Shown here: positions 34,352 through 56,725 of the stretch, one piece after another
Position numbering within the stretch: the first letter of the stretch is position 1
How the letters are laid out: each line of letters opens with the position of its first letter
DNA from: Plicaturopsis crispa FD-325 SS-3
Taxonomy: Eukaryota > Basidiomycota > Agaricomycetes > Amylocorticiales > Amylocorticiaceae
Assembly (NCBI GenBank): GCA_000827205.1
Contig: KN832562.1
Span: 529,829-593,828, forward strand
Reading direction: 5' to 3'
DNA length: 64,000 bases
The notes under the pieces: generated by a model
What the model was told of the DNA's origin: nothing
Database searches by the model: none
Seen by the model: only the letters and a program-made list of their open reading frames with translations
Made by a program: the position numbers and the translations under genes

Positions 34352-34701
34352 GAGGGTGGAGGAAAGGCAGCGTTGCGCGCCTCCGACTCCGGGACGTTTC
34401 TTGACTTTCAAACTGCCACTTCATTCTGGCTTCCAGCTAATGTACACTGATCTCTCCATGTTCCTTCGCTGTTTGGCATGAGTATCTGGATGTCTTTACC
34501 ACAATGCTTATTTCACCATTGGCGCGAATACCAGCCACGTCGTCCATTCCCAGCAAACGCAATAGCGGCCCGAGTGGACTTGACAGCTGACTCGCCGGTC
34601 TCGAGCACGCTTCTGCTATCCTGCGCCGACATATAATACTTGATTCGGATATCCTTTCTGCGAGGTACATATCGTCGTAGTTGAACATAGCGTAACTCGC
34701 A

Positions 34702-36319
34702 ATGGTCCCCCCGAGCATAATCACGAAGTTGGAGGCGAGTCCATCTTCCACTTTGTGTCGACTCGAGCTATCTAACCGCCTACCCCGCATAGATATTCCG
34801 CGTTCCACCGCGCTGGCTGTTTGTACGTGTCGAAACCGACGACGGCGTCGTTGGGTGGGGTGAGGGAACCCTCGAGGGCCATACAGAAGCCGTCGAAGGG
34901 GCCTTCGCCGACTTGCGCGAACGCGTCATCGGGAAGGATGCAGATGGGATCGAGGATATCTGGCAGATGGCCTACCGAGCTCGATTTTATCGTGGCGGCC
35001 CCGTACTCATGGTAAATACACACGTAGTTTGTTCACTACTTTCTGGAGTATTGATGTCTTGCATATCAGTCCGCTCTATCTGGGCTCGATATTGCGCTTT
35101 GGGATATCAAGGGAAAGAAACTTGGTGCGTTGTCAGCGTTCGAAGCGATACCCTCAATGAATGGCATCGATAAATAACTCAGGCGTGCCCATATGGCAGC
35201 TTCTCGGAGGCAAAGTTCGCGATCGCGTCAAAGTCTACGGATGGGTCGGTGGCGACCAACCGAGACTCGCATTTGAAGCTGCCATGCTGCGTAAAAATGA
35301 AGGCTTCACCGCTGTTAAGATGAATGGGACTGGTATGTATCTGGAGCATCATGAAGACGCAGAGCCGGGCTAATTTGCGGGATGACAGATGCCTTAGGCT
35401 GGCTTGACTCTCCAGCTGCATTGGCGGACACTGCGGCACGCGTCAAAGATATACGCACGCTTGGGATGGATGTCGGCGTTGACTTCCACGGACGGTTGCA
35501 CAAGGCTATGGCAAAGCAGCTTGTGCATCTTCTCGAGCCATGTCAGCCCATGTTCATAGAAGGTAGGGTGTCCTACATTAGTCTACAGATCGAGAGTGCT
35601 CATGACCGAGGGACGCTCAGAACCGCTCCTACCAACCCAGGTCGATGAGATCGCCGACCTAGCTAGAAGCACGAGTACTCCGATTGCACTGGGTGAACGG
35701 TTGTTCACGCGTAGTGACTACCGGCCGTACTTTGAAAAGCGAGCAGTCGACATTGTACAGCCCGATGTAAGCACTCGTCTCTATCACCACTTAGCCACTA
35801 TCTCAACTTTGTGGACTTGTGTAGGTAGCACATTGCGGTGGCATAAGTGAAATGCGTCGCATTGCTAGCATGGCAGAGACATACGATGTAGCGCTTGCCC
35901 CGCATTGCCCACTCGGCCCCATCGCTCTGGCGGCATGTATCCAGGTAGCCCTCAATGCTCCGAACTGTGAGTATCACTCCCATGTCACTGGTTTTCTAGC
36001 TTCTTACACGGCGTTGATCGTGAAAAGTCGCGATCCAGGAGATGAGCTGGGGGATACACTACAACGTTGGCGCAGACCTTTTCACATATCTCGCATCAGA
36101 GAAGGTGTTCGGGGTCGTGGAAGGGCACATTGCAGCACTTCAAGGTTTGCCATTCCCATCCGATGTCCGTTTCTAGCTCCCGCTGAGTGTCTCGTTGTAG
36201 CTCCGGGGCTTGGTATCGAGATCAACGAGACCTTGGTGCGAGAAGCCGCTGCCGCGAATCCGGAAGCATGGAGGAATCCTGTGTGGAGAAATGTGGACGG
36301 GAGCATTGCTGAATGGTGA
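34702..36319 (+). CDS. Galactonate-dehydratase-like enolase-superfamily enzyme
   Basis: Dehydrates a sugar acid, by family similarity D-galactonate to 2-keto-3-deoxygalactonate. The 33-nt first exon (MVPPSIITKLE) is followed by a 58-nt intron with GC...AG ends, then IFRVPPRWLFVRVETDDG. Enolase-superfamily residues are present: VGVDFHGRLH (metal Asp plus His), MFIEEPLLP (metal Glu), PIALGERLF (metal Glu) and LAPHCPLGP (catalytic His). The tail reads PGLGIEINETLVREAAAAN and ends SIAEW. Eight or nine short introns, one between VQPD and VAHCGG. No break seen. The last exon (36201-36319) is duplicated as a fragment at 50.6-50.8 kb. Other sugar acids of the same subgroup remain possible substrates. 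Confidence 0.88.
34735..34792 (+). other. GC-AG intron in the galactonate dehydratase gene
   Basis: The donor reads GAG|GCGAGT and the acceptor GCATAG|ATA. The join keeps phase and links KLE to IFRV, matching the family's N-terminal strand. No nearby GT donor gives the same product. Confidence 0.55.
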
Positions 36320-36788
36320 TCAAAGGAGTACAATGACGCGTGTGTACACTCAGGAATGAAGCAAATGTACGTAAATATTGTAATTATAGTTGTCGTCGTG
36401 TTCTCCCTCATGAATATGCGTACACAAATAAAAGGGCAAAGTCTCAGACCTTCTCCTAGCGAAGGGTACCGCATATCCGTGCGGCCTTTGTTCGGGTTAG
36501 TGTGCGTGTGAACGTGGCATTGCGGCAGCTGGACTCTGGACTCTGGACAACGACTGGCCAAAGGGAAATTGCTCCAAGACCAACGACTTATCGGCAATAA
36601 ATATTGAAGGACCTGCACGCTCGCGGAGATCGAAAGTTTAGAAAGGAGGACGCAGTGGCTACTTCATGTTCGCCACTCGTCATTGTCTTGTCTCGTCTCG
36701 CAAGACCAAAACTTTCCGGTCAGCATTCGATATGTTTGATTATCAAAATTAATCTGCCACTCATCTCGATCTCAAGCGCACTGCCAAC

Positions 36789-39096
36789 ATGCTTCTGGAC
36801 GGCGATAGAGGCAATCCAGTCGGTGCTGTCAAGAAACCCCGGCCATATGAAGACCTCTCAAGTCAAGACAGTCACGAATCCGCTGGCAGTGCAGCAACAA
36901 AACTCAACGACGAGATGCGGTACGCATGGGTCGGCCCTATGCCTATCGAAGAATTCCTCGAATCTTTTTTACCCTCTGCTCCAACTCCTCGTTCTACGAC
37001 TAGCCACGATACCTGGCTCGAGACGTGGTGCAGCGCAGGTCCCAACTCCGGCGCACCTCATTCACAATCTGAGACGAACACAAAACTCGTAAGTATCTAT
37101 AACCTTTTCATTGCAGTGTGCTCACCCACAGCTACGTTACAGATCAAGGCTATCAAAAGAAGCAATCTCTGCCCAATGCTCAAGTTCTTCGACACGCACG
37201 CCGCAACCGACCAGTCCGCTGCCAGGTGTCGCGAAATTCAACCGGACTTGTGCGTATACAACGCAGACGACGCAGGCGACGTCGATGAAAAGGATCATGC
37301 CCACTGGTCTACCGTAGCTATGTGGTGGAAGGTACAAGGTTCAATCCGCCAGGCTGATCCATGGGGGTCATTTCTGCCTACGGTAGAGGACAGAGCGAGG
37401 ATGCGTGGACTACACGTCTTATGCAACGCCAAGATGTTCAATCGACAGCACCGCAATTTCGCATTCTCCGTCGCGATTATGGGTGACTTTGCTCGCCTCG
37501 TTCGCTGGGACCGCGCCGGCGGGATTGTATCCGAAAGGTTCGATTACAAGGAAACCCAACACCTAGGCGAATTCTTGTGGCGATTCAACCATATGAGCCC
37601 CGCCGCTCGCGGACTAGACTCGACCGTCACGAAGGCGTCCGACGCAGAGATTGTTCTCGCAAAACGCTTTCTCAGTAAATTTTCCTCGTCCAAGACCCCT
37701 CCTCTCAATATCGCAATCGAGGACGGCAGGCGCCACTACATCGTCTGGAAGCCTCTTGGAGATCCCCTCTCGTCCATCGGTCGCGCTACGCGTGGATACC
37801 CCGCCTTCGAACTCGAAGCTACGATTGCTAATCCGCACGAAGTTAAACTCGTCTTTATGAAAGATGTCTGGCGCATCGACTCAGAGGAATGGCTACCGGA
37901 AGGAACTATCCTCCAGGAGCTCAACGACGCAAAAGTCCGCTACGTGCCGGATCTACTATACCATGCCGATGTCGATCCCTTAGGCCGCGGCAGGACGAGG
38001 ACCAATGAGGATACGTTTGCTAAACATTCCTCGTGGGCCTCGAGGAATGTCCCTGTACTGATTCCTCGCATTCATTATCGCATGGTCACAAAGTTCTGCG
38101 GTGTCCCCATCTATCATTTCAAGGAGTCCTCGGAGCTGATGATCGCAACTCATCATGCGTATAAGGGTGAGTCTGGTATTTCCTCTGCCTGACACAACCT
38201 GACTTCGACGCGGGCAGCTCACCGTGACGCATTCGAGAAATGCGAGTACATACATCGGGATGTTAGTGCCGATAACGTCCTGATTGATTGGGACAAGGAT
38301 GGCAATCCGCGGGGAACGCTCATAGATTGGGAATTTGCGAGGAAGATCGGCGATATCCAAACGGAGCGCCGCCAAGTTACCCGCGCGGTAAGTCTTATTC
38401 ATTGTCGCATGGGTCTCTTCATTGCTGATCTCGCCTGGATTATAGGGGACATGGCAGTTCATGTCATGTCGACTCCTGCAGGATCCTCACAAACACCACG
38501 AAATTCAAGACGATATGGAGTCCTTCGTGCACATCGTCATGTGCGTTGGGCTGCGCTGGATTCCTCACAATCGCGTGAACGATCTCTACTCGATCTTCTC
38601 CTACGTCTACGACGCAGCGCGTCCCCTCAAGGGCGGCAAGATGGCTGGGGGTTCAGGCAAGAAAGAGCTGTTCAACGCGCTCGACCACATCCGCCCCGAC
38701 TTCGCTTTCGATGGAAAGGGTGATATGCCCCATCCCATGACCGCCTGGGTCCTCAAGTCGATCGAGGTCATCAACAAGTGGCTGACGTACTGCAGTGCCC
38801 GCGAATCGTATCCTCCGAAAGCGCTTGACGGCTACGACTGGGCTTCCGTAGATAACCTCACTAAGACTGCACTAGTCGAAGATCTCCCTGAAAACCCCCT
38901 CAAGGATCACGCGTGCATGGATCTCATATGGGATATTGTGCTGCAGAGGTTCTACGCCAAGAAATGCCAGTGGCCGAGGGGAGATAAAGTTGACGACCAA
39001 CTGCCTACAGCCCACCAACTCCATCATACGGAGATATCTGTTCCTCACGGACGAGTTCGCATTTCGGGCGCTCATTCGAATGATCCAACTTCATGA
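36789..39096 (+). CDS. FunK1-type fungal protein kinase, copy A
   Basis: Member of the fungus-specific FunK1 kinase family, expanded in multicellular basidiomycetes. Start MLLDGDRGNPVG. The N-terminal region YAWVGPMPIEEFLESFLP is a FunK1 hallmark. An intron near 37089-37142 is followed by FFDTHAATDQS, FNRQHRNFAFSVAIMGDFAR, GEFLWRFNHMSP, and IGRATRGYPAFELE. The catalytic loop IHRDVSADNVLIDW and the DFG-equivalent LIDWEFARK are intact, joined by short introns at about 38167-38218 and 38388-38444; then WQFMSCRLLQDP and DDMESFVHIVMCVGLRW. The C-terminus is short compared with copy B at 47.4-50.1 kb, lacking its acidic tail. All kinase residues looked for are present. Targets are unknown. Confidence 0.9.
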
Positions 39097-39503
39097 TAAT
39101 CTTCGACCCTCTGCCCGGCCATTCGTTCCTTGAATGCCTCTATCACTATGCAGCCCCGCCTGTTGATCATGCTAGAAAGCTGGCGAAGACAGTCGTTCAA
39201 TGAGTATTACCTTGTTCAAAGTACTTCATTGAATATGACCCAGTGCCAGTTTTATCTTGGAAATCGCATTTCTTGAGCTCGTTTAACTGCGTTCAACCAT
39301 CACACCGAGGGAGGGGCACTCTCTCTTTGAAGGGTTTCGGGCTATCGTCGATACGACATGTCGATTGACGTGAATTGCAGGAATGAAAGTAATTGGACAA
39401 GTACTAATGACAGAAAGACTCATGCGATAAAAGAGACAATGATACACCATACACCCAGCCTTCGTCCACCAACACCTTAGAGCCGTCAAATGCTGTCGGA
39501 CCA

Positions 39504-40217
<714 letters not shown>

Positions 40218-41446
40218 TGTTCAAAGGTCTGGCTGCTATGCCGAAGGTTGTTTCTACAATCGGTGACGGCGTGCCAGAGATCGAAGAAAATCGGATGGAT
40301 CGTGTGCGATTCGTTGTGCCCAAGATAGATAGTTTTGTAGGTGCGATTTGGAGTCGATTGGAAGGAGAGACAGGTATTCGTGAGGACGATTCAGAACGAC
40401 ATGAATGCGATGCAGCACTTACAGAATAGAACGGGAACGATTGCTGGCAGAGACAGCGGGACAAGATGGTGGTAGGACGCTAAGACGCGGAAGGAGGCAA
40501 GGCTGTATTTGTAACCGCCGATTTGGCGCTCAGCCACCCGAATCCGGCCCCGCCATCTATAAAACTCGGCGCTGACTTGCTTGCACTGGACAGCCTCGAC
40601 GCAGCACCATATTCCTTTAGGCATAAAGCTACAGCCTGTTGCTAAGTACATGCACAACTCCGTTCTTGTATTCGCATATATTTTGTACGGTCGTTTATGG
40701 AACAAAGCTCGGGGTTTTCCATAGCGCTGATTCTTGCCTTGTTTTGTCTGCCGTTCACCTGAACGTTCTCTACAGCTAAGTAGGACAGCCGTCGCATGAG
40801 AGCGGCGCGGTCCCCGGAGCCTTAACCTCTCAGACAAAACGATAGGGTGCGAGTGATCGTCCAGAAAATCGCGAGACTGCATGCCTCTGAGCGACCTTCG
40901 AGAACAAATTGGTTTCACTGAGGTTCGCTGAGGTCGGCATATTTTACCGCCTTCGTTGGTCATTTTTTCGCCTATCCGACGTTTTGCGCGTATGTAGTCT
41001 TGCAGCTAAATGAGATTTGGAAGTCAGTGCCATGCGTTATTCCAACCGCAATGCCATGCAGGAGCATACCTCGATGTCCCAATTTTCCTGAGACTCCCGC
41101 ATTTGTATAGTACGTTGTCCGAGCCCGGAGATACGTGCGCGAGCATCTTGCCACTTACGCTATAAGGTCACGTATGATATGAGATTCCACCGTTACACGG
41201 AGACCCTACCCGTCTCTTTCAAGTCGACCTGTCATTGAAGTAATAAGCTCGGAAGTGTCGCCAGTGATAGACTTGGAAAGGGCGTACCGTATACAGAATA
41301 GGAATGTGCCCATTCCAGTTCACAGAAGAGCGAGACTTGAATGCTCACCAGTAGCAGAAGAGTTGGCCACTATTGAGCGCTCGGCTATCCACCGAATTGA
41401 CACACCCGGTCTCGTCAAGGTAAAAGGCGGATAGATTTTGCATACA
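40218..41446. other. Intergenic stretch, nothing recognised
   Basis: About 1.2 kb between the E2 start and the 3' end of the NDUFS5-like gene. A 190-codon minus-strand frame at 40391-40963 has no recognisable motif and is arginine/serine-rich in a way typical of chance frames. Confidence 0.4.
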
Positions 41447-41979
41447 TCACTTCGCCGAATCGTCACTCGTAGCCTTTTGACTTTGAATCAAGCCTACGCC
41501 CACGACAACCCCATCCGCAAGTGATTCAGACACTTTCCGACCCTCCTTCGCCTGGTGCTCGGCCTTGCGCAGGAACTCCGCCTTCACGGCCTGCTGGCGT
41601 GCAATCTGTTTGTCTTTCGGTCAGTAGCGCCTCGACACGACATGCCTTCCGTCAAACAAAACGTACGTCCTGTGGATGATGTAGGCATTCTAGGTAGTCA
41701 TCCGCCTGGAGTCGGCATGCACTCGGGCTATCTGTTTCCGCGTAGCACTGCAGAGTCAAAGAGTCAGTACGCTGGCAATACAAATAGCGAAACGACGCAC
41801 TTTGGAGAACTCCTGCCAGTATGCGAAACAGCGCGAGCGACCTGTGTCACGCTAAGCATTCGTGTCAACGGGTGCGTTCGGCGACAAGCGTACCTCCTTT
41901 ATAGCCGTAACCCGACTTTATGCAGCAAACATGAGTATTTGGTTGAGTAGGTATAGGTATTTGGGACACGTACGGCCAT
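41447..41979 (-). CDS. NADH:ubiquinone oxidoreductase NDUFS5-like (15-kDa) subunit
   Basis: Small accessory subunit of mitochondrial complex I facing the intermembrane space. It is missed by long-frame searches because it is cut into five short exons. Joining GT...AG introns gives MA / SGYGYKG / GRSRCFAYWQEFSK / CYAETDSPSACRLQADDYLE / CLHHP… and a last exon reading QQAVKAEFLRKAEHQAKEGR that stops at 41447. Cysteines in RCFAYWQEFSKC and SACRLQADDYLEC form the paired CX9C-type motifs of the family. Length about 110 aa, as expected. One junction (after LHHPQ) could be placed two ways. Divergent with GET5 across 185 bp. Confidence 0.82.
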
Positions 41980-42164
41980 TGAATCGAGAGTGTTGTGGTT
42001 GTAGAACGAGAGTAGGTTCGGAGATGACGGTCAGGAAATGACTTCGGATTGATTGGCTTTGAACTTGAACTTTTCTTGTCTTGAACCGCGACTTGATCAC
42101 GACCACCGATACTCTATCCACGTCCCCGCCACAAATTCACGGATATTCTCCGTTATACCATAGC
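41980..42164. promoter_or_regulatory. Compact divergent promoter between NDUFS5-like and GET5 genes
   Basis: Only 185 bp separate the two start codons, so both housekeeping promoters must overlap. No TATA box was noticed. Confidence 0.45.
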
Positions 42165-43128
42165 ATGGCTGAACAAGCTGAACATGCGTTTATCAAGAAC
42201 TTCGCGAGCGCGCTAGCGTCCCAGCCCCTCACATACCCCCATGATTACCAGCAGCCCCCGCAGAACTCCCTCAAGAAAGTCCCCGTTCTTCCGGTATGCA
42301 GGGACGTTGCATTCGCGCATTATCACGTCAATGCCAACTTTCTATGCCGTCTAGATTGACCTCCCTGAGCCACCAGCACGTAAACAATCTGCATCGACTT
42401 CAGGTACATACGCTAGTTGATACACAGCCCCGCACGACTGCTGACCGCACGCAGACTCTATTACCATCACATTCAAATCCGCCAAACCACCGCAGTCGTT
42501 CAAGCTTCCCGTTCAACCCACCGACACCATCGCCGCAATCAAATCCCTCATCGCGACCCAGCCGAACGCCCCACCCGCTTCATCGCAGCGTCTCCTACTA
42601 AAGGGAAAGGCACTGTCCGACGCGAAATTGCTGAAGGAGTACGACGTCAAGGACGGCGATACCGTGAACCTGATGGTCAAACCCGGAGAGGCGACTGCAT
42701 CGCCTACTATCAACACCCCGCCCCCAGATAGCACGCCGTCGAAGCCGAGCAAGCATCAGCGCATTCCATCTGTAGTCCTCTCGCCTTCACCATCAGCCTC
42801 CTCTCCACTGAACGAGCCGAAACCCCTCGACATCACCCTCACGCTCGATGTGCCCCCGGCTCCTCTCGATTCCCATTCGACGTACCACACGACGATAGTC
42901 GACCCCACGTATTGGCTGAAACTACATGACTTCCTGAAGTTCGTATCTCGAACAAAATGTCCGCTGATGTGCACTGACAGATGTATGCGCAGATCTCAGT
43001 TCTTGAACGAGCACGACGCGCTGCTGGCCTTCGAGGACTACCTTCGAGCCAGCAAAGGCATGCTTAGCGCGAATGAGGTGGCTAAAATACGCGACGAGGT
43101 CGGTGTTGTCGGGATGGCGGGTACATAA
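42165..43128 (+). CDS. GET5: Get5/Mdy2-like ubiquitin-like protein of the GET pathway
   Basis: Links Sgt2 to Get4 in the cytosol for insertion of tail-anchored proteins into the ER. Start MAEQAEHAFIKNFASALAS, the first ATG giving the conserved Get4-binding N-terminus, followed by PHDYQQPPQNSLKKVPVLP, a hallmark of the family. Two short introns precede the ubiquitin-like domain (TITFKSAKPPQSFKLPV to KDGDTVNLMVK; its RLLLKGKALSD resembles the ubiquitin hydrophobic patch region). Then come a Pro/Ser linker and a C-terminal helical dimerisation region (HDALLAFEDYLRAS, ending GVVGMAGT). Layout and length fit Get5. No defects seen. Confidence 0.85.
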
Positions 43129-43427
43129 GCTAGCTGGCAAACGGGTTCTGGTTACCTCCAACTTTTTACGGATTGGTCAATGGCAGAGTCCAACTCTGTC
43201 TGTTATGGGTTCTGGGCATTTGTACATTATTCTCTACAATCCGCGCTCCACGACAGAATGAACGGTTTTCGCAAGGTTTTCGCGAGGCTGCCTTGCGCCG
43301 GTTATTTCCACCGTCAGGGGCGTGTTGGACCCACATCGCCAAATAAACGCAACTTTCAGCCAAGGCAGCAATTTCGAAAGCAAAAACTTGCATTGGCCTT
43401 GCGCTGGACTTATACCACAAACTTATA

Positions 43428-46400
43428 ATGGCTCTACACACGGAAGGTATAGGGTCGCTAAACTCACCTATAATCATATCAGACGAGGAGGAGGATGCCC
43501 TCGCAGTCGCACGCCAGCTCCAGCCCGAATCCGAATTTACCCCTCCCTTCGAGCCGGACCCCACTGCACACCTCAGAGATACGAAAGCGTACCGCATAAT
43601 GCTCTGGATGGGCTATGTTCCCGGTAACGGACTAGGGCGTGAACTTGATGGTACGTCTAGTGGTCTCCGTACACGCGCAGGACACCAGTTCTTACTGTTT
43701 TGTACTCTTAGGAGAGATAGAGCCTCTGCCGTGGGCGATTGTGTGGAGGCGCACGGAATGCGGCGTTGGGTTTCGCGAAGGAATCCTTTCTCGCCCTGCA
43801 TCCCCTATGGTCACGCACGGGTCTCCCGACATGCGCCCGCCGAAGCGTAAACGCGACCTCAGCCCCTTCACGCTTGATGACGGCCGCCCTGCCTGGTGGA
43901 CCAATGATATGCATGCAGACGCCCCCGGTGGTTCTGACTTACCTTCCTCCGCTAACGGGCTCTCTGGGAGACCGGCCCCCACATCCATGATGTCAAGGAA
44001 GAAGCGGCTGAAGCTGGAGCGCGAGATGGAGCTTGCAGAGCGACGCGAGGCTTCAAAGCCTCCGCGCCTGATCGATATAGCGCGCACCCTGCCCTGCTCT
44101 GCCTACTGCAGAGACCCAACGTGCAGAAAAATTCATCCAAGCTCGGGGAGCGGCCCATCCACCGGCGATATACAATTCAACGATGCCCTGCCTTCTAAGC
44201 GCGGGCCCCCATACCGCCCACGCTTGCCTACTCAGCAGTCCTCGATACCAGATGTTCCACATACCCAGCCAGCACTCGTCGATACCCGGGATGATACGAA
44301 ACCCATCGCTTCATCTTCCAGGCTTCCCCCACAGAAAAAGTCGTCTTTACCCATCGGAATGCGCCATTCGAGTGCAGCCGACAGTAAACATGGTTTATTC
44401 CCAAATGGCTCTTCGGTTTCTACTCCTACTGGCGAGCCTCATATTCCCAACCCATCCCGTACTCTTGTCATGGAGCCTCTTCCGAAAAAATTCCGTAATC
44501 CACACTGGGTGAAGGAGTGGTGCCACACTGCCGCAGGCGCGCACCCGGCCGCGGTTCACGTCGATGTTGACCCGAAAGCTGGGAAGGCGCTTATTGAGTT
44601 TACCCAGGAGGACCTTGCCGAGGCAGCGTTTAACAGCCCCCGGTTCCAGGACAGAGAGGGCAAGGGCGGCATAAGGGTGTGGTGGTATAGGACTGCCGCC
44701 GAGGTCGAAGATGGGGAAATATGCGAGGGCCAGGCACCGCCTGACAACGCTCCTCCCAAAAAGCCGAAGAAGAAAAAGGAGAAGAAGAAATCGGAACCTC
44801 CTCAGCATCAGCCAGCTTCTGTCGTCCCTATGGCCGGCACAAATGTTGATCTCGGCCTCCTGCCACACCTGCATGCCACTATGGGATTCCCGCCGCCAAA
44901 TGTGCCGATGCTTCAGAATTTTGCTGGCCAGGCGTCGTTCCCCACGTTTGCCCAATTCGTTCAAAATCCCGCGCAGTACATGGCGCCGTACGGGCTTCCT
45001 TACAGCGGCCTACCAGTGTACAACCCCGGCTATCAACCTACGACGCCCTCGTTCCCCTTAGCGAGCCCAATGGATGTCTCACCTGAGGAGCAAGACTATC
45101 TGATAGACGACGACAAGCTTAGCTATCCGCCCGAAGCACTTGATGATCCAATGGTGGGACAGGGTCCATCTACCGCTCCAGATGATGACCACGACCATGA
45201 CTCTATCGCTTCCTCGAGAGGTGGATCACCCCTCCCCTTGCATACAGCAACTCCTGGGCCAGTGGACGCTGAAGATTCTGCAGAGGATATGGACGTGGAA
45301 TCTCCTGTTAGCCATCGTGTCGCCCAGCGAAGTGGCCAGGGTTCGATTGACTTCTCTAGGAGCGATATCCCTCCACTACAAGACGGTGCGCCCGTCCCTA
45401 TCCACGCTGCTTCCTCCGCGGAAGTGACATTACACGAACCCGCACCTCACCACGCACACACATCCACGCTCAACCCTTATGCCATACCGTTCCCGTCTCC
45501 GGATGTCCCTGCGACAACATCACTACCGACTCCCTCGTTACCAGCTCCTATCTCGCCACCTCGATTGCCGCCTACTGTCACTCCGTTAAGACAGTCACCG
45601 GAGGCTCATTTACAGGACCCTATACTGCCGACAGCGTCCACGATGACCTTGCCAGTCGGGCCCCGTGCTATGAAAAAAGCCTCTGTAGAGCCGAAGGATA
45701 TCGTCAAACGATCTCTTCTAGAACGGCAAAAGGAGCTCGAAGAACGCATCTCACGGTCGAAAATGGAGCTCGGTGTTGCAGTCGAATCCGCCCATTCCCC
45801 GACAGTCAAGACATCGCATACCGTGCCTAGTGTGGCTGCCGCTTCGCCCACTGCGAGCGAGCCTCGCGTCGATAAGGTTGCGATGGAGGAGGCGTTACGG
45901 AAGCTGGTCCTACAGAGCAAGAACAGTAAAGCCCTGGCCCCAGGTGTAGCGCACCGAACTCTGCCATCCATCAAGGTAGAAACAGGTCCTCAATCTTTAC
46001 CGCCAACTTCTCCACCAGCTACCCTGTCGAAGACAAGTATCAAAGCCGGACACCCGGGGAAGGCCTCTCGCATTTCTCCAGCCTCCTCCTCGGAGTCCGA
46101 TCCCACAATTTCATCTGCGTCGTCCAAGACGACGCTTCCTGCTGCCATTCAAAGCCCTTTCGACGACTTGGCGGTGTCTTTTATCACCGAGACTCTCCAC
46201 ACTATCACGAAACCTGCCGCGTCGTCTCAGCGAAACGAACTAGCCGCGCGGCAAAAGCGGCTGGAGCAGCACATTGCAGAGAGCAAGGAGCTCATGCTCA
46301 AGCTGAATGCCGCGCGCACGAAGCAAGAAAAAGACATAATATTACGCATCATGCGGGAGCGAAGTCGGTGCGTGTTCGGCTCAGTCTTTTCCGTTGTCAA

Positions 46401-46646
46401 ACCCTTCGGGATCATCGTCGTGGGTAAGCTAAGAGGTATATGTCTAGGGCGATGGAAGACGATATGAAAGCTCCGCCCCCACCTGCACCTACGGTCAAGA
46501 ATGAAGTCCCCTCACGCCCTTCTTCGCAAAACAAGGACAATGGGTCGCTCAAGCCTCACGGGATCACCCAGATTCATTGGCCTGAAACGCGGCACGACGC
46601 GGGAGTCTTTGAAATCAGCGACGACGAGGATGACGGAGTCAATTAG
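43428..46646 (+). CDS. Large G-patch protein with RRM-like domain
   Basis: Probably nuclear RNA-processing protein. Start MALHTEGIGSLNSPIIISDE. The G-patch (MLWMGYVPGNGLGRELDGEI, about residues 63-82) crosses the first intron. A Cys/His cluster follows (CSAYCRDPTCRKIH, a possible CCCH finger), then an RRM-like segment from VMEPLPKKFRNPHWVKEW through HVDVDPKAGKALIEF to IRVWWYR. A long low-complexity Pro/Ser region and two predicted coiled coils (RQKELEERISRSKMELG; QKRLEQHIAESKELMLKL) complete it. The last intron ends TCTAG before GCGATGGAAGAC. Hydrophobic-acidic motifs at both ends (IIISDEEED and FEISDDEDD) resemble SUMO-interaction motifs. About 1,040 aa; role inferred from domains only. Confidence 0.82.
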
Positions 46647-47445
46647 GTTTATAGGTATGTTGTTTTATCGGCTGTGTGAGGACAGATGGGAAGTTCAGAC
46701 ATTGGGGCCCCGCCTGGTGAGGCATGCGTGCGTTACTATCTTATCAATAGTACACCTATCTCTTGAACATTACATTTGACGTAGGACAGCCTTGTACCTT
46801 CCTTGTTTTGAGCGTACGGTGAGTGTGCAAACATGATCATCGTATATCTAGTGCACTGACAATCGTCACTCTCCATAGATCATCCAATTTCGGGCGCGTT
46901 CTTGCTGGGAGATACCAATGGCCAACGTCTGTGCTTTCCGCTCCAAATGCTCTTCGGAGCCACGGAGCAGGACGCCGGCGCTCTGGCGGATACTTCGGCC
47001 TGTCGCAAACTAACTTCGAGCAGGGTTCAGTCGTTACGGCTGTGAGGCCTGAGGCCCCTTGAGGTCGATACCTACGCGCGTATACCTAGATACACTCTAA
47101 ACTGCATCTGTGTATAACTGCCGCTATACAATTTCAGTGGGAGTGATTCCGAGTGAATTCTACATATACCATGATACCCACGTGCTTGGGCAATTGCAAG
47201 TCAACAGCACAGACGAAGATACATATAAGCATGTAAGTTTGCTTGATGCACGGCGTAGCGTCTCGTTATCATCAGACCTGTGAGTACTTGAGTCGATGCA
47301 TTGTCGACACCAGTGAAATCCCCAAGCACATAGCTGAGACTCATATTCATAGTACATGGTATCATACATACATATAATGGCAACATAGGTGAAGCGATTC
47401 CTGCGGGCACTGACGAGAGCTAGTGCCTCAAAGGCTCAAGCTGAC
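46647..47445. other. Convergent intergenic stretch, nothing recognised
   Basis: About 800 bp between the G-patch gene and FunK1 copy B, which point toward each other. It holds both 3' regions; no RNA gene or repeat was noticed. Confidence 0.45.
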
Positions 47446-50137
47446 CTAAGAGTCGCTCTCGTCGTCCGAGTCATCGTAGGACTCGTCGTCGTCGTCGTCA
47501 TACTCGTCCGACTCGTCGTACTCGTCGTCGTCGTATCCCTCCATAGCCTCATCGTCCTGCTCTCCAAGCTCCGGTTCCTGCTGTTCGTGTTCCTCCTGTA
47601 TGCTTGGCAGTTGGGATTGATCGCCGACGACCGGTACCTCCGTGTGATGAAGCTCCCGGGCTCGGGGGAGTTGATCGTCCACTCTATCGTTGGTTGGCCA
47701 TTTTTGCTGGGTAACCTTCTTCAACACGATCTCCCAGACGTGGTCCAAAAACGAATGGTCGGGCAAGGGGTTCTTCTTCGGAACGAGGTCATCTTCGAGC
47801 TTGTACTGTTCGTTCAGCGCCTTGAGCTCGGCCTCTTCCTCCTCCTCCGATTCAACTTCTGGGGTAGGCGGTCTAGCGTCGCGAGCGTTGGCATACTGGA
47901 TCCAACGCTTCATGACCTTCACGGCTTCACGAACCCAGGTCGTCATGGGGTGCACACGCCCATCCTTGAGGTCGAAAGCGAAGTTGTTCCCAATGTAGCG
48001 GTTCTTGTAGAACATCTGTTCCTTGCCTGCTCCTCCAGTCATTTTCCCGCCCTTGAGCTCCTGCGATGCATCATATACATGCTTGAAGATTGAGTAGAGA
48101 TGATCGACGCGATTATGAGGGATCCATCGGAGTCCTATGTACATGACGATGTGCACGAAGGACTCTATATCGTCCTGAATCTCGTGGCGTTTGTCAGGGT
48201 CCTCCAGAAGCCGACACGACATGAACTGCCATGTCCCCTAGTGATTGGAATTAAGAACGCGACGTGACGGCGCAAAGAAAGTGTTGTAACTCACGGTACG
48301 GGTAAAGCGACGGTGGCTATTTTGAATGTCGTAGGTTTTCCTCGCAAATTCCCAATCGATGAGCGTTCCGCGTGGTTTCCCTTCTTCATTCCATTTGACA
48401 AGGACGTTGTTGGCGCTGACATCCCGATGTATGAATTCGCATTTTTCGAACGCGTCGCGATGAGCTGCGGGTATTGTAATCAGACGGTGTTGCGCAACAT
48501 ACAACACCAAGCTCACCTTGATATGCATGATGAGTCGCGATCATCAGATCCGACGACTCCTTGAAATCAAAGATACGGACACCACAGAACGTCATGATCA
48601 TGCGATAGTGGACACGAGGAATCAATCCAGATGTATTTCTTGGAGCCCACGAGGCTTTGGTGAAAGTCTTGTCGTTGGTTTTCGTTTTGCCGTACTTCAG
48701 AGGATCGACATCAGCATGAGACAGTAGGTCTGGCACGTATCGGACTTTGGCCTCGTTGAGCTCCTTGAGAATGATGCCTTCTTGCGGAGTGAACCCATCA
48801 TCGACACGCCAGACGTCTTTCATGAAAACCAGCTCAACGTCGTCCGGCTTGGCAAGTGCCTGTTCGAGGTGAAAGGCGGGATAACCACGCGTGGCGCGGC
48901 CAATGGATGAGAGGGGGTCACCAAGAGGCTTCCAAACAATATAGTGACATTTCCCCTGGTCCGAGTCGAAGGCGACCCTCAGCGGGCAGCTCTTCGAGGA
49001 GAAGTCTTTGAGGTAGCGCTTGGCGAGAGCAATCTCTGCATCGGAGGCCTGTGTGACAGTCGTGTCTAGTCCGCGATCGGCAGGGCTCATGTGGTTGAAT
49101 CGCCACATGAATTCGCCCAGGTATTGAGACTTCTTGTAGTTGAACTCCTCCGACACGATCCCACCGGCGCGGTCCCAGCGGACGAGACGAGCGAAATCGC
49201 CCATGATCGTAACGGAGAACGCGAAGTTGCGGTGCTGCTGGTTGAAAATCTCGGCGTTGTAGGAGATGTGTTGCCCACGCGCCTCGACCCTCTTCTTTGC
49301 CGTCGGGATGAAACCAGTCCGCGTGGAAGTCCCCTGGCAAATGTTGCCCGTTGTAGAAGGCGCTCGTCCCCTAGCAGAGGAAGCTCGCCCCCTAGCAGAG
49401 GACGCTCGCCCCCTGGTGGATGGCGCCCGTCCCCTAGCAGATGAAGCGCGTCCCCTCGCAGAAGGCGCTCGCCCCTTCGTAGCGGTCGTAGTAGGCTTAT
49501 GAGGGTCGTTCCAAGGATCAGCGACCACACGTTTGGCCTGTACTTCCCACCACATCTCCATGAACGCCCAGTGTGTAGGGTTGTCTGTCCGAACGCTGCC
49601 CACATCTCTCCCGTTGTAGGCACACAGGTCGGGCTTAACCTTGTGACCCTTGTTAGTGGAGCGATCCGCCCTGGAGTGCGTATCGAAAAAGCGAAGGTCT
49701 GGGCATATTTTGCTCTTATCGATGGCGTCGATCTGCGAGGTCACCATCAGTTAGTGTACAGAGTGCCATATTGGTATATATCAAGGCCTCACCAGTTGAG
49801 CGTACATGCCGATCTGCGGGTTCGCGCCCTTTCCAGGTTGGACGTTGTCCCACATCTTGAACCAAACGTCGTCGCTTGTGTATGGGCGAGGCTCTGGGGG
49901 AGCAGGCAAGAATGCTTCAAGAAATTCCTTGACGGGCATAGGTCCAACCCAGGCGTGTTGCATCTCGTAATTGAATTCTGTCCTGGCACGGTCAGCTTTG
50001 GGCTCTTGACTCGAGAAGCCTTCCGATGACCTGCCCCTCTTGAGAGCTGGGCCAACATATACATCGGGGACGCCGATATCGTCGGGGGGCCGCTTCAGAC
50101 CTCGAGGAGGGGCGGGCACTGGGTTTCGATCGGACAT
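47446..50137 (-). CDS. FunK1-type fungal protein kinase, copy B, with repeat insert and acidic tail
   Basis: Paralogue of copy A on the opposite strand. Start MSDRNPVPAPPRGLKRPPDD; then HAWVGPMPVKEFLEAFLP, FFDTHSRADRS, FNQQHRNFAFSVTIMGDFAR, GEFMWRFNHMSP and IGRATRGYPAFHLE, roughly 80 per cent identical to copy A over this core. Catalytic loop IHRDVSANNVLVKW and LIDWEFARK are intact. Two differences stand out: a run of about six seven-residue units of the type GRASSAR inserted after DPWNDPHKPTTTATK, and a long C-terminal tail rich in Glu, Asp and Tyr (EGYDDDEYDESDEYDDD). Introns match those of copy A. A truncated dehydratase exon lies upstream at the same distance as in copy A. Confidence 0.9.
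49356..49483 (-). repeat. In-frame 21-bp tandem repeat coding GRA(S/P)S(A/T)R
   Basis: About six imperfect 21-bp units within FunK1 copy B give Gly-Arg-Ala-Ser/Pro-Ser-Ala/Thr-Arg repeats. Unit length is a multiple of three, so gain or loss of units keeps frame. Copy A has a short non-repetitive segment at this site. Confidence 0.85.
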
Positions 50138-50608
50138 GTTGGATGGAAAGGAAAGCTTACCGAATATTATTGGGAGCTCCGGATTTTAAAGGCCCGTTCG
50201 ACACAATGCAGATAGAAGGCGAAATTGGGCGTCGGTTAGAGACAATGAATCGAAGGGGGTACTGGGACGGGCGATGTGGCATGGGTAGACATGCGTCAAC
50301 CTTCGACCTTTCTAGTGATTTTATAAGTCCGCGATTGTGGTGGTCTTGATTTTAGTCCGTGCCGATGATGCCGAGTTTTAGGGAACAAAGAACGGAAGCT
50401 TGTCCACCTGTTGTCCACAGTCCGAATGAGTATTGCACACACAATGCCCGGCGAATTTATGTGTGTACTCAGGCCGCACAAGCGACCCTGGGGATGAACT
50501 GTTTCGCCTTTATCCTTTCATCTCGGTCCGCACACGCATGAGGAACATGACAGAAAGCAGGATTACAGACTTACAGTCACGTACTGCCGCGGCGTGCATG
50601 GCGAGCAG
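50138..50608. other. Duplicated spacer between dehydratase remnant and kinase B
   Basis: 471 bp, against 469 bp in the corresponding place (36320-36788). Patches still align with the other copy when reversed, for example around the stretch GCGTGTGCGGACC near 50530, so this is the inverted duplicate of that intergenic region and probably contains the kinase promoter. Confidence 0.6.
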
Positions 50609-50760
50609 TCACCATTCAGCAAAACTACCATCAACATTCCTCCGCACAATCTTCCCCCATGCCCTCGAATTTGCGGCGGCGGCTTCTCGCAACAAGGCCT
50701 CATTGATATCGATGCCGAGTCCAGCCCTACGCGAGACTCAGCGACGATGCGTATTAGGAA
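50609..50760 (-). pseudogene. Broken last-exon copy of the galactonate dehydratase gene
   Basis: Minus-strand reading gives AGLGIDINEALLREAAAANS, then AWGKIVRRNVDGSFAEW and a stop at 50609. This matches the intact gene's final exon (GLGIEINETLVREAAAAN … WRNVDGSIAEW). The end of the preceding intron is also recognisable (TGAGTCTCGCGTAG against TGAGTGTCTCGTTGTAG). Upstream of about 50760 similarity is lost and no other dehydratase exon is present, so the copy is a truncated fragment created by a duplication break inside the gene. Confidence 0.85.
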
Positions 50761-51258
50761 TGATAAACGTTGCGGACCAGCGATAGGTCCTTCCAAGAAG
50801 GTGAACGTCCGTTCATTGTAAAAGGCATGTTTTCGTGCCGACGTGTTCCCCAGTTCATCTCATGTATCATACCATAACTGAAAAGTACTGTTGTCCCGCG
50901 TAAGACACAAGATAATATACCAGAAAATACGGAAGATTCCTTACAGTTCAGAGCATTGCCACTTTCAATTTTTCTTCGCGCCGCAAGCGGCGTACGTGCC
51001 AACGTTCTGCGGGCGTGCTGTGAATGAGATTCGCACACTGTAGATGTTGCAAAGAGTCTCCCAGAAACCAGAATATACCGAGGAAAGGCGACCTGGCTCC
51101 GACTCGTCGTATTTCCTCGGCGCGCCGCCCGCCAGAGTCCCATCCGAAGCCCGATTTCTGTGCCGCTCGTTCCTTGTGTCCCGAACTGTTCGACACGGTC
51201 GCGCGTCTTTTGTCTTGTTTCTTGTCATCTCGCCTTTGCTATCCGATCTGTCACACAA
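50761..51258. other. Intergenic stretch, nothing recognised
   Basis: About 500 bp between the dehydratase fragment and the Nup96 gene. Contains the Nup96 promoter; no motif recognised. Confidence 0.45.
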
Positions 51259-54200
51259 ATGGCGCGCTTTGGAGTCCCCACTAGTGACTCCAGTGACTCC
51301 GACGACGATTCCAAGTCTAGTTCCAACTCTTCTCAACAGGCTTCCTCGCATCGCTTCACAGGGCGCCCTCACGTAAATGAAAGCGAAGACGAGGAGAAGG
51401 ATGAAGAAGATGAGGACGAGGATGAGGACGAGGAAGATGAAGACGGTGACGATGACAGCGAGGACGACAGCGAAGATAGCTCGGAATCCTCAGAGTCCTC
51501 GGATATGCACGAGGACGAGCTCGTAGCATCTCCTCCTCGAAAACAAAAACCTACTCCGAACGCCCTGGTCGAGGACGAGGACGGTGATATACGTTTCGCG
51601 CACGAAATCGAACGACGTCCGCTCGCCGTGTCAAGGACTCGCGGAGACCCGACACTTGTTCCATGGGCTCAACAAGTCGGCGTAGACGCGCAGAGGATGC
51701 ATGTCATGCAAACTTCACTGTTTCGCATGCCAGAGGAGGCCGCAGCTTTGAGAGCTATGAACCAGCCAATATCACGCCCGCACCTTCTCCCACAAGCGCT
51801 AAACCGGAAACACAGCAGAGACTCTGACGGGGACTTGCGCATTGACGCTCGTGAGGTATGTAAAGGTGTCGATGTTGCGAGCGTATGCTCAAAACTACAT
51901 TCGTGAAGACGGCAAAGTTAATTCTTCGTTTTCAAGCGAGCGTCATTTGCGCATGACCTTGAGCCACCTGTCTACAGACCATCACGAAAATACGCGAGGG
52001 TGGAGGGGTCCGACTCTGTTGCCAATGGCAGCGAGGGTTTCGCGGTAGATGCAGGACTGGCTTTGGGCCGCTCATTTAGAGTAGGCTGGGGACCTGGCGG
52101 CACCTTAGTCCACTTGGGCCAAATTTGTGGCCCGTCTGGCAATTCGTAAGTCAATCAGACCCTACTGCATGCAATCAATGTCTGATATTCTGCCAGAAAA
52201 ACATCAGCGAACTCTTCTATAATATCTAAAACTACGCTGCCTGTCTTCGCTTCACCGACATCAGAGGAAGATAACCGTTTCACGAAGCTGCTACAACACC
52301 ACCTCACCAACTCCCCCATTGAGCCCGACGCCGACGGCATACCATTCGCCAATCCGTCCAGCGACCTCGATTTCGCATCATTTTCAAACTTATACCTACC
52401 GACCGACCGCTCGTACGAGGCCTCACTATTCCGTCTCGGCCACTGCCTGTTTGATGAAATCGACCTACGTTTATCTGATACTGTCACAGTGGACATCCGA
52501 AATCGCATAACCTCGTTGCGACGGAAGGCTGCTCTTTCCTCTTGGCTAGAAGAGATCGTGGCGCCGTCTGTGGACGTAGAGTTACGAGAAAATCTCTCAG
52601 CGACGTCTGCGGCGGTTGCATTTACGCACCTCACTGGGAACCAAATAGAGAAGGCATGTGAGGCAGCGATGGATGGGGGAAATGTGAAACTCGCGACTTT
52701 AATTTCCCAAGCTGGTGGCGACCTCGAATTCCGCGCGGACCTCAAAGAACAACTAACGTTGTGGCAGGAGCAACGCATCGACGTACACATCGACGAGGGT
52801 GTACGCAAGGTCTATGCTCTTCTCTCCGGCATACTAGACGTCGTCGAAGGCTCGAAAGGCGCAAGTCTCGAGCGATGCTCCGATATCGACGTCGCGAGCG
52901 GGCTGGACTGGAAACGCACGCTAGGTTTACACCTTTGGTTCTCGGAACCCATGGACACCTCTATTGCCCAGGTCTTCCAGTCCTACGATCGCCTATGGAG
53001 GGATTCTCCTGAACGAATAGCGGCTCCGCTCCCTTCATACTCCCAATCGTCATCACAGTGGAAATTGCCCACCTCCAAGCCTCCCCCAGACGCGTTGTTC
53101 TCGTTAATCAGGCTGCACGCTGAGCCGGCCTGCTCACTTTCTCAGATACTGTCCCCCTTCTCCTTCGGAGCGTCTCCCGTCGACTACTCCCTCCCCTGGC
53201 ACCTCTACATCGTTCTTTCTCGTTGTATGCGGGTGCGCGACTTCTCCGACCGCGGGGACCCAGGCCCCGCGTCCGACGATGGCGATGATGACGACGAATC
53301 GCGTGTCGAAGGTCACAGTCCGAGTGCTGATTTACTAGCGAGTAGCTACGCATTTCAGCTGGAGCAACTGGGAATGCTACAGGAGGCATTGTTTGTCCTT
53401 TTGCATATAGAAGGACCGGCAGGGTAAAGCGGCTCTTCGAATTGTCTGAAAGAAATACTCACAACATATAACTAGGCGGAAGAAAGCAGTGATGGAGATG
53501 CTTTCGCGCAACGCACCCAAACTTTACGACCCTTGGATGGTCCATGGTGTTGCCGGGAGCTTGCTCATCCCAATGGCATGGGTTGATGAGGCGAAGGTGC
53601 GCGTTAGTTTCTATCAGTCTTACACCATGAACCTTACCGGATCTACAGGCCATACACGCATTCGATAATGGTCGCGTCTACGAGGCGTACGAACTGTATC
53701 TGTCCGCACGGTTATTCAACCAGGCACATGAACTTGCTGTCCTTGAGCTCGCACCCGACGCTGTGATTCGTCAAGATCTCGATCTACTAAGCGAGCTCTT
53801 CGCCAAAATCGCAGGTCAGCCTGTTAATGGATGGCATATCCGTGGAAAAGTTCGTCTTCACGTTTTGAGCTATAGCGTTGGGCGATGACTCTGACCATAC
53901 GCATTGCAGGCATTCCTCGATTATGTGCATATCATGAACCGGCTCCCTGAGCTTCATGCACAGCTGAGTGAGCATGACGCTGTGCCCGATGCTTCCCAGG
54001 CTCTTGAGCTAGAGGAACTCACACGGAGTATACCAAAACTCATCGGCATCCTCCCCGACGTCCTCCGCGATCGTGCTGACCCGCGCCACAATGCAGCGCT
54101 CGCTGAGATGATCGCAGGGCTGATGTTGCGTCTGGATAAAGTAAAGCCTCTTGCCCTGGTACGTTGTTTCTTGTTTCCATTCATGCGGGATCTAATAGTT

Positions 54201-54320: not shown

Positions 54321-54981
54321 TTCACCGGGGTTCTTGTCTTGTCAATCTGATATAATAGTGGATTATATGACTCAGATTCCTCGGTACCGTCGATTGCGTG
54401 AAGGGCGAATCCATAGCTAGCCAGGGATCATCTTCGAACACCGGACACTCGCTAACAGTCATTCACAGATACCATGATCGCTGCTGCCGAGCAGACGCGT
54501 TGTGCCGAGGACCCCAGCAGGTTCCTTTCTATGTTCCCGAGTAACCTCAGATGCGTTCTTTTTTCACTATCCTGGCTGAAGACGTGGTTCTTCTTCTGTG
54601 TACCGCTGTGGCGATGGCATTAGTTTGAGTTCATCATAACTCCCTTGTTTCCTCAGCGTGTATATTCACTTTCAGGACTAAGGTACGTGTGAGATATTAT
54701 CTAGGCCACCCTCTCTAATTTCGATTTTAAAGGTCATCGACAGTACGAGGTTTTCTGCCCACCAACATTCCCACTGGCAGTCCGTCTATCTCGTATTTGC
54801 AGCTCTCACGAGTCTGTCGGATGCTTCCAGTGAAAGTGACTTGCGTACGCCCTCGGCAGAAACTCTTCGATAGGACAGCATATGGGGAAGCCCGACCTAA
54901 TTCCGTCGCAAGAGCCAGTATAAAGGTGCCAAAATTCGCTCCAGTAGCATTGCACATCTTCTTGTCCACCCACCTTTAGCC
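54321..54981. other. Intergenic stretch with promoter of the first SDR
   Basis: About 660 bp. Besides a TATA box close to the SDR gene there is no recognised gene or repeat. Confidence 0.45.
54919..54925 (+). promoter_or_regulatory. TATA box of the first tandem SDR gene
   Basis: TATAAAG lies 63 bp before the start codon at 54982, a fitting distance for a short leader. Confidence 0.55.
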
Positions 54982-56377
54982 ATGGCAGACGCGATTCTTC
55001 AGCATCTCACCGCAACCAACATTTTTGACCTTTCTGGTATGGTGGCAGTCGTCACTGGCGGTGGTTCGGTGAGCAAACAAGTGCTGATTGACGAATCGAT
55101 GCTGATTCGCATGCAGGGGATCGGGCTCATGATCACTTCGACTCTTGTTGCCAATGGCGCTCGCGTGTATATAATAGGGCCTAAGCAAGATGATCTGGAC
55201 AGGCAAGTGTATATCATGTTTCCGTCGCTGCACATGCTAACGAGCAATGTTTGAAAGGATTTGCAAGGTCTACAACGACGTCGCCGAGGTGACACCTGGG
55301 CGGGGATGTATGTACGGCGTACAAGGCGATATCAGCCGCAAAGTGTGTTCAGGTCACCATGGATTCTGTTCCGCGCCGCTGAACATTTTCTCAGTCTGAA
55401 GCCATCCGCCTTGCCCACACAATTGGCCAGCGTGAGCAATATGTTACGGTCTTGTTCAACAACGCGGGCATATGCGAAGGCCGAGCTGTCTCTCCCCGTG
55501 AAAATACTGCGGCGTCCTTCAAAGCTGCCTGGTTCGAACCAATCACCCAAGAACAGTTCATTGATACTATCAACACAAATGCCGTCGGGCCGTACTGGAT
55601 GACATTTGTGAGTACCACGAAGTCTGCTTAATGGGTATGTATGTGACTGACGGATGGTTTTCAATATGCAGGCATTTCTTCCGTTGCTAGAGAAGTGGAA
55701 ACAGTCAGGCCCGGAAAATCCGGCTGCCGCCAAATTTGTGCCTCAGGTCGTGATGACGAGCAGCATGAATGGATGGACCAAGGTAAGAAGAAGCTTCTTC
55801 GAGTCTGGACACGATCACTTTACCAAATTTTGTCTGCAGGACCCCAAGACGTCGGGATCCTCTTTCCCGTACATGTTCTCAAAAAGTGCAATTGGCCAAG
55901 CAACGTCCTCTCTGGCTCATGAGCTCTTGCCCCTAGGAATTCGTGTCAACGGAATAGCACCAGGTATGCATCCTCTTTTTATCACGCCGATATGCAATGG
56001 CCGTTGATCTACGGAGTAGGCTACTTCCAGACCGAGGTATGTCTTCATTGTAACACTTTCAAATCTGTTGTGACTGAGTATTTCTTATAGATGGTCGCCC
56101 CTGGCACTGCAGACGCGCTCGGAAGATCCCATGTACCCGCTGATACAGATCGATTGGGCTTGGAATTGCCGTTAGTGCCCACCGGAGGCACCGATCGCGA
56201 CGTAGGCGCACTGGCCTTGTTCCTAGTGACTAACCACTATGTGAGCGGGGAGACGGTGCTCATCGACGGTGGTGTGAGTGAAAGACCTCTGTGGGACATC
56301 CGTCTTGCTCACAAAAGAGCTCATTTCTTGCCTTTCCCTTCGTGTAGACCATGCTCAAGCATCCATCCTCATGGTAA
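54982..56377 (+). CDS. Short-chain dehydrogenase/reductase, tandem copy 1
   Basis: NAD(P)-dependent oxidoreductase of unknown substrate. Start MADAILQHLTATNIFDLSG. The Rossmann motif VVTGGG-GIGLMI is split by an intron; ANGARVYIIGP follows; then VLFNNAGICEG, TNAVGPYWM, catalytic Ser in VVMTSSMNGW, catalytic YMFSKSA (Tyr-x3-Lys), LPLGIRVNGIAPG and VSGETVLIDGG. A last exon supplies TMLKHPSSW and the stop. About eight short introns. Very similar in order and exon structure to the gene starting at 56726, showing tandem duplication. All SDR residues are present. Confidence 0.88.
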
Positions 56378-56608
56378 ACATCACCGTCGGTTCGAAAAAT
56401 GTAGCGTGCGTATCTCTTATGCATTGTACTCCAGCGATCGATGAAACTGATTTGGTGTGAATTATATGCACAGTATCTTGTATGTACTTCTGTGCAAAGA
56501 TCTTGGAGCGTTCGAGAACATATAACTTGTGTGAGGACCGTTATTGGCAGCGATATCTCGCTGATAAGATCTTCACCTCAACGACGTCATGCGACCGTGT
56601 CCGCGACT

Positions 56609-56617
56609 TATATAAAG
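56609..56617 (+). promoter_or_regulatory. TATA box of the second tandem SDR gene
   Basis: TATATAAAG lies 117 bp before the start codon at 56726. Both tandem SDR genes thus keep TATA promoters, which often goes with inducible expression. Confidence 0.5.
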
Positions 56618-56725
56618 GACGCTGTCTCGAACTTGTCCCGTCCAGCGCTGTCCGCTATTCCCTTCCCACATTCTCCATCCAATTCCGCACGTCTAGGCTC
56701 AAGTAATTTCTAAGTCCTCGCAACC

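Follow-up and report, generated by a model that had tools for sequence, protein, structure and literature searches.

An inverted duplication of a dehydratase gene end and a FunK1 kinase gene in Plicaturopsis crispa, with a truncated transposon end at the edge of the dehydratase remnant

Duplicated (non-processed) pseudogenes keep introns and flanking sequence. According to a report on Paracoccidioides (PMC3203195), FunK1 kinase genes expand through lineage-specific duplication and are overrepresented in non-syntenic DNA, and a serine at the position of the HRD-loop lysine is common to their proteins. Here we describe a locus of Plicaturopsis crispa FD-325 SS-3 in which the end of a D-galactonate-dehydratase-like gene, the following spacer and a FunK1 kinase gene occur in two inversely oriented arms, called arm 1 (plus strand) and arm 2 (minus strand). 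Both lie in a window of 64,000 nt, which is the whole stretch of DNA that was analysed, and all genome-wide statements refer to one 33.2-Mb assembly of this one strain. The locus is like the FunK1 expansion described in PMC3203195 in that a FunK1 gene was multiplied by duplication and in the HRDVS serine of both arms, but here there are two inverse copies in one genome, and part of a neighbouring metabolic gene was carried along. The dehydratase part of arm 2 is like duplicated pseudogenes in that introns and flank are kept, the 5' part is lost and one exon carries length changes, whereas it is unlike the usual ones in that a truncated transposon end lies at the point where it visibly stops.

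Extent of the inverted duplication

We compared the window with itself by blastn, and scored segments of the two arms against each other relative to 300 doublet-preserving shuffles. Three inverse blastn matches were found, covering the dehydratase end (36181-36319 versus 50743-50609; 139 columns, 77.0% identity, E 7e-22), the N-terminal region of the kinases (36825-37028 versus 50047-49850; 205 columns, 67.3%, E 2e-8) and the kinase core (37377-38774 versus 49306-47909; 1424 columns, 73.0%, E 0). The spacers of the two arms are related as well, with a score of 43 against a null maximum of 19.5. These results bear out the claim of an earlier, sequence-only reading that dehydratase end, spacer and FunK1 gene recur in inverse orientation, with similarity present outside the kinase domain, and such collinear inverse similarity beyond a single gene identifies the locus as an inverted segmental duplication. 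The distances of 469 and 471 bp from stop codon to ATG that this reading had given are also correct; their near-equality is partly a coincidence, because the start codons are not opposite each other in the spacer alignment, where that of arm 2 faces an ATG at ~36732, away from the arm-1 start at 36789.

Downstream, the segment scores place the end of the similarity at the kinase stop codons: the DNA 3' of the kinases (401 and 446 bp) is unlike in the two arms (score 14 versus a null maximum of 18 in the shuffles), and no repeat was seen at these arm ends, since a search of the assembly with 46900-47445 and 39097-39460 returned nothing but these stretches themselves. Inside the arms, likeness is undetectable in the first kinase intron (score 6.5 versus a null mean of 6.5 in 300 shuffles). 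For the upstream limit, block scores were compared with those of 1000 random segments of the window. The block 36020-36180 scored 21.5, as high as none of the 1000 (null maximum 17), and 35900-36040 scored 19, a value attained by eight of them, while for the five other blocks, from 34700-34999 to 35830-35970, between 84 and 841 of the random segments did as well. By these scores and the alignment the homology starts at about 35953 in arm 1 and 50958 in arm 2, with no block upstream of 35953 above chance, rather than at 36201 and 50760 as had been proposed, so that the arms span 35.95-39.1 kb and 50.96-47.4 kb, with lengths of about 3.1 and 3.5 kb. The dehydratase part of arm 2 therefore holds more than the final exon and a remnant of the preceding intron, to which it had been limited: exon 8 and intron 7 can be traced in decayed form, followed by 14 bp of exon 7, whereas the block scores against random segments revealed neither exons 1-6 nor the rest of exon 7.

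When the assembly was searched with the arm and the best candidates were scored, long matches were found in just two places. FunK1 exon matches number 61 across the genome, as would suit two FunK1 genes unrelated in place, with a dehydratase match due to chance. However, the dehydratase end and the spacer are collinear far above chance, and the kinases of the two arms are sisters with 100/100 support in a FunK1 tree that comprised both arms and 20 further rows, 22 in all. They are closer to each other than to the other rows, and together with two neighbouring C2 genes they form a larger group, likewise supported at 100/100. The rows of this tree were joined from exon matches by script, and it left out the fragments at C9:458 kb and C9:642 kb, which fell below the length limit, together with FunK1 places for which no row was built. 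Such an independent origin is thus refuted, with virtually no probability left to it, and the data support one inverted duplication of linked DNA, comprising the dehydratase end, the spacer and the FunK1 gene, over two independent FunK1 copies. The features of the locus are collected in Table 1.

Table 1. Coordinates of the two arms, the block between them and the adjoining transposon end, in positions of the window
Feature	Position	Strand	Details
Intact D-galactonate-dehydratase-like gene	34702..36319	+	9 exons by hand model, 384 aa, open 1155-nt model
Arm 1, dehydratase part	35953..36319	+	Last 14 bp of exon 7 (end 35966), intron 7 35967-36027, exon 8 36028-36144, intron 8 36145-36200, exon 9 36201-36319
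Arm 1, spacer	36320..36788	+	469 bp; adjoins the dehydratase on its 3' side and the kinase on its 5' side
Arm 1, FunK1 kinase	36789..39096	+	Exons 36789-37088, 37143-38165, 38217-38387, 38446-39096; 714 aa
Block between the arms	39097..47445		8349 bp, unduplicated; E2 (-), ubiquitin-domain gene (+), G-patch gene (+), others
Arm 2, FunK1 kinase	47446..50137	-	Exons 50137-49793, 49732-48518, 48465-48295, 48237-47446; 840 aa
Arm 2, spacer	50138..50608	-	471 bp
Arm 2, exon 9 remnant	50609..50726	-	Ungapped over last 37 codons, same stop
Arm 2, decayed part	50727..50958	-	Intron 8 50771-50727, exon 8 50884-50772, intron 7, last 14 bp of exon 7
End of terminal-inverted-repeat element	50961..51044		83-84 bp; outer end toward Nup96, cut inner end toward pseudogene

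Kinase conservation and divergence of the arms

Both kinases belong to PF17667, with scores of 74.0 bits in arm 1 and 67.8 bits in arm 2 (gathering cut-off 24.1), and in both the HRD-loop lysine is replaced by serine (IHRDVSADN and IHRDVSANN). The arm-2 kinase, unlike that of arm 1, carries an arginine-rich repeat and has a long acidic C-terminal tail; the repeats, at 49347-49475, code for arginine-rich RGR-type units placed after the N-terminal region and before the kinase core. Differences in the core lie mostly at third codon positions, and over the aligned codons we obtained pS 0.633, pN 0.247, dS 1.39, dN 0.30 and an omega of 0.215. As judged from these substitutions, both kinase copies are shown to be under purifying selection.

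Elsewhere in the genome, a FunK1 fragment of the same subfamily at C9:458.4 kb (L041 3840-4730, minus strand) shares 81% DNA identity with arm 1 over 133 bp; its N-terminal half was unseen within the roughly 440 bp looked at beside the fragment. A second, weaker FunK1 piece lies near it (L041 2777-3095, plus strand).

We estimated distances for introns, spacer halves and exon remnants with a pair-HMM (a hidden Markov model of the aligned pair). The distance was 0.67 in the 5' half of the spacer and 0.59 in the three kinase introns, and within the dehydratase part it was 0.45 for exon 8 plus intron 8, 0.38 for intron 7 plus the exon 7 end, and 0.25 for exon 9; the distance of the 3' half of the spacer is unusable, its optimum of 0.06 coming with very high gap rates and a profile that is flat up to about 0.5. 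Because the kinase introns align weakly, all distances between 0.4 and 1.0 having likelihoods inside about 2 log units, they can only set bounds on the age. Nevertheless, the kinase dS, the intron and spacer distances and the longest identical stretch between the arms, which measures 25 bp, indicate that the duplication is old.

The inverse orientation of arms of about 3.1 and 3.5 kb had led to the suggestion that they could recombine and flip the 8.3-kb block between them. Efficient homologous recombination usually needs far more than identity runs of 25 bp or an identity of 73%. As the arms are too diverged, their longest perfect match being 25 bp and their longest conserved stretch, the kinase core, only 73% identical, homologous exchange is unlikely now. 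Moreover, the sliding identity (0.45-0.82 per 40-codon window) gives no trace of recent gene conversion, and the single assembly has one orientation. We thus regard flipping of the block today as highly improbable.

The dehydratase remnant and the transposon end at its edge

The intact gene at 36 kb encodes a member of the MR/MLE family of the enolase superfamily, in which PF13378 was found by the search of this genome; the first intron of the hand model would be GC-AG. Its best match in the Protein Data Bank (PDB) is 3rr1, 'Putative D-galactonate dehydratase' (E 2.6e-128), and covers residues 7-384, essentially the full length. The substrate is only putative, because the 3rr1 entry is itself named putative. 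The last residues of the gene, RNPVWRNVDGSIAEW, match RNPVWRHADGSVAEW of 3rr1, while the arm-2 remnant reads GKIVRRNVDGSFAEW; the RNPVWR motif shared by the gene and 3rr1 is lost in arm 2, where GKIVRR stands. The exon 9 remnant has small gaps in its first bases and no stop inside the 37 codons, with 10 amino-acid differences in 37, whereas exon 8 of arm 2 has suffered several length changes, its boundaries being set by hand. With intron 8 kept, most of the gene undetected, and coding capacity broken by the length changes and the loss of RNPVWR, the arm-2 dehydratase is a pseudogene. The only other PF13378 gene found, at C9:613.3-614.2 kb, was considered as an outgroup and left unused; it looks like a putative L-galactonate/fuconate dehydratase type.

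Only 2 bp separate the end of the remnant (50958), where the similarity drops abruptly, from a fragment of another kind that starts at 50961. Besides itself, an assembly search with 50750-51270 returned, among the best candidates scored, 50961-51043 at C11:27575-27657 (98.8% identity) and 50961-51044 at C3:439483-439566 (95.2%). At these places lie full copies, of 634 and 644 bp, which are 90.5% identical over 643 aligned columns, and both are bounded by TACAGTGTGCGAATC in inverse orientation, which identifies a terminal-inverted-repeat element. This 15-mer occurs exactly five times in the assembly, namely, twice per full copy and once in the window, against none for the control; one mismatch adds no hit, and two mismatches give 48 hits against 28 for the control. 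The TA found at each end of both full copies may be a target-site duplication, or it may belong to the repeat itself. In its length of 0.63-0.64 kb, its 15-bp terminal inverted repeats and the TA at both ends, the element is like miniature inverted-repeat elements with TA target sites, but it is unlike them in its very low copy number, since two full copies and one fragment were found among the best candidates. Its origin may be Tc1-mariner-like. Rfam gave no match on 50800-51300.

The transposon fragment is far younger than the duplication, because it is 98.8% identical to the C11 copy, while the kinase cores are 73% identical. A transposon-mediated origin of the duplication was therefore ruled out, the fragment being about 1% diverged from the other copy and the kinase cores 27%. 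The junction suggests the following history. In the distant past, a stretch with at least the dehydratase end, its 3' flank and the FunK1 kinase was duplicated in inverse orientation at a distance of about 8.3 kb. The two kinases would have remained functional and diverged, with arm 2 coming to differ by its arginine-rich repeat and acidic tail; of the two dehydratases, one is still intact and the other has decayed to a pseudogene. At a much later time, a DNA transposon of roughly 0.63 kb, probably non-autonomous, would have inserted near the pseudogene. A deletion that began within this element and reached exon 7 would then have left the 84-bp transposon end joined to the last two exons of the pseudogene. 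For this whole account of old inverted copying, later insertion and subsequent deletion we estimate a probability of about 0.72; the duplication with its present extent, the pairing of the kinases and their purifying selection, the decay, and the less diverged transposon end at the junction are direct results, and the deletion, the order of events and a once-longer copied dehydratase are what we infer.

The sequence-only reading had taken the end of the remnant as the original break, made inside the dehydratase gene by the duplication itself, and from that break had derived the 36-kb copy as the source; the transposon end would then be adjacent by chance. The gene at 36 kb is indeed intact, nothing dehydratase-like was found beyond 50961, and the remnant is only about 300 bp from the presumed Nup96 start codon at 51259. 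However, a truncated and little-diverged transposon end lies 2 bp from where the homology ends, and its cut side is turned toward the remnant. Such an arrangement would require a chance placement plus a deletion ending exactly there, and the homology reaches deeper into the gene than had been thought. We consider an original breakpoint at this position unlikely, and the break in the dehydratase is best read as a later deletion. For this reason the intact copy is not provably the source: of the two loci, the one at 36 kb has retained the gene, but what is now missing from the other may at one time have been there in full.

Several points weigh against the deletion account. Dehydratase homology does not resume on the far side of the transposon end: 51045-51264 scores 15 against 34680-35953, a value reached by 68 of 500 random segments, and 9 against 35650-35953, reached by 466 of 500. 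Likewise, the DNA upstream of the dehydratase gene is unmatched beyond the transposon end, with 288 and 223 of 400 random segments scoring as high. This lack of resumed homology fits a deletion, and would fit an original boundary near 50961 equally well. Exon 9 (ungapped over 37 codons, distance 0.25) and exon 8 (with length changes, distance 0.45 together with intron 8) have decayed unevenly, which a uniform history does not predict. Furthermore, the FunK1 fragment at C9:458 kb stands outside the 22-row tree, and the evidence comes from one genome.

The uneven decay also bears on a sharper form of the deletion account, in which a complete dehydratase-FunK1 pair would have been duplicated and both dehydratases long kept under selection, the second then being lost by the transposon-linked deletion and point decay, while the kinases were kept and their tails diverged. 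The exon 9 differences fall on the three codon positions as 8, 2 and 14, with an omega of 0.21. We simulated the exon under a Jukes-Cantor-like model in which the branches were equally long and the constraint was assumed to be 0.12. Under neutral decay of arm 2 since the duplication, the probability of so few amino-acid changes is 0.092 at a distance of 0.4, 0.015 at 0.5, 0.003 at 0.6, 0.001 at 0.7, and below 0.001 at 1.0 and 1.39. Under constant selection on both copies, that of at least 10 changes is 0.004 at 0.4, 0.012 at 0.5, 0.033 at 0.6, 0.071 at 0.7, 0.315 at 1.0 and 0.687 at 1.39. Thus neither regime suits the middle distances well, and the result leans toward a period of function followed by decay, in agreement with the 10 amino-acid changes without a stop and with the low probability of neutral decay from 0.5 upward. 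On the other hand, neutral decay keeps a probability of 0.092 at 0.4, constant selection on both copies suits poorly at the shorter distances and well only at 1.0 and 1.39, and decay has gone much further in exon 8 than in exon 9. The change of exon 9 would also be slowed by a short gene conversion from arm 1 or by a role in the regulatory region of the kinase. We therefore hold the duplication of a complete, long-selected gene pair as a tentative reading, with the odds somewhat against it.

Surroundings of the locus and meaning of the duplication

In the unduplicated block between the arms, the Pfam search confirmed the E2 gene (PF00179) and the G-patch gene (PF01585), as it did PF17667 for both kinases, and the gene at 42.4 kb, a putative GET5, has a ubiquitin domain; the NDUFS5 gene named by the sequence-only reading is a putative assignment as well. 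Three other open frames of the block and one frame of 943 aa matched no Pfam family.

Beyond the transposon end, a Nup96 domain (PF12110) lies in 52186-53427 (plus strand), in the gene with the presumed start codon at 51259, while the sole NUP98 autopeptidase match (PF04096) is on C1 (L049 346-1938), so that this fungus appears to encode NUP98 and NUP96 in two separate genes. The NUP98 open frame ends with ...FTVEHF and a stop, at the place where the natural HF/S self-cleavage site would be; an intron there is possible. No description of such separate genes was seen in the literature searched, including passages of PMC8421043 and PMC4758718, and it may be known. Further along, 54980-58074 contains a direct tandem duplication of a short-chain-dehydrogenase-like gene (68-79% DNA identity, Pfam scores just under the cut-off). 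At the other end of the window, a pair of inverted 59-bp repeats (83%) at 3340-3398 and 7069-7127, about 3.7 kb apart, encloses a 138-bp palindrome (5193-5330; arms 82% complementary, 14-bp perfect core stem) and a GC-rich tandem repeat (6205-6451); the 59-bp repeats could be the ends of a mobile element.

Neither the element nor the mechanism is of a new kind, and the locus is a case of ordinary genome evolution. Its lesson is that what looks like the breakpoint of a duplication can be a deletion made later and marked by a transposon, in which case the intact copy need not be the source. If the reading of a duplicated gene pair were true, the stepwise breakdown of such a pair would still be readable in the sequence. 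For the FunK1 family, the duplication represents one route by which these kinases multiply and gain new tails.

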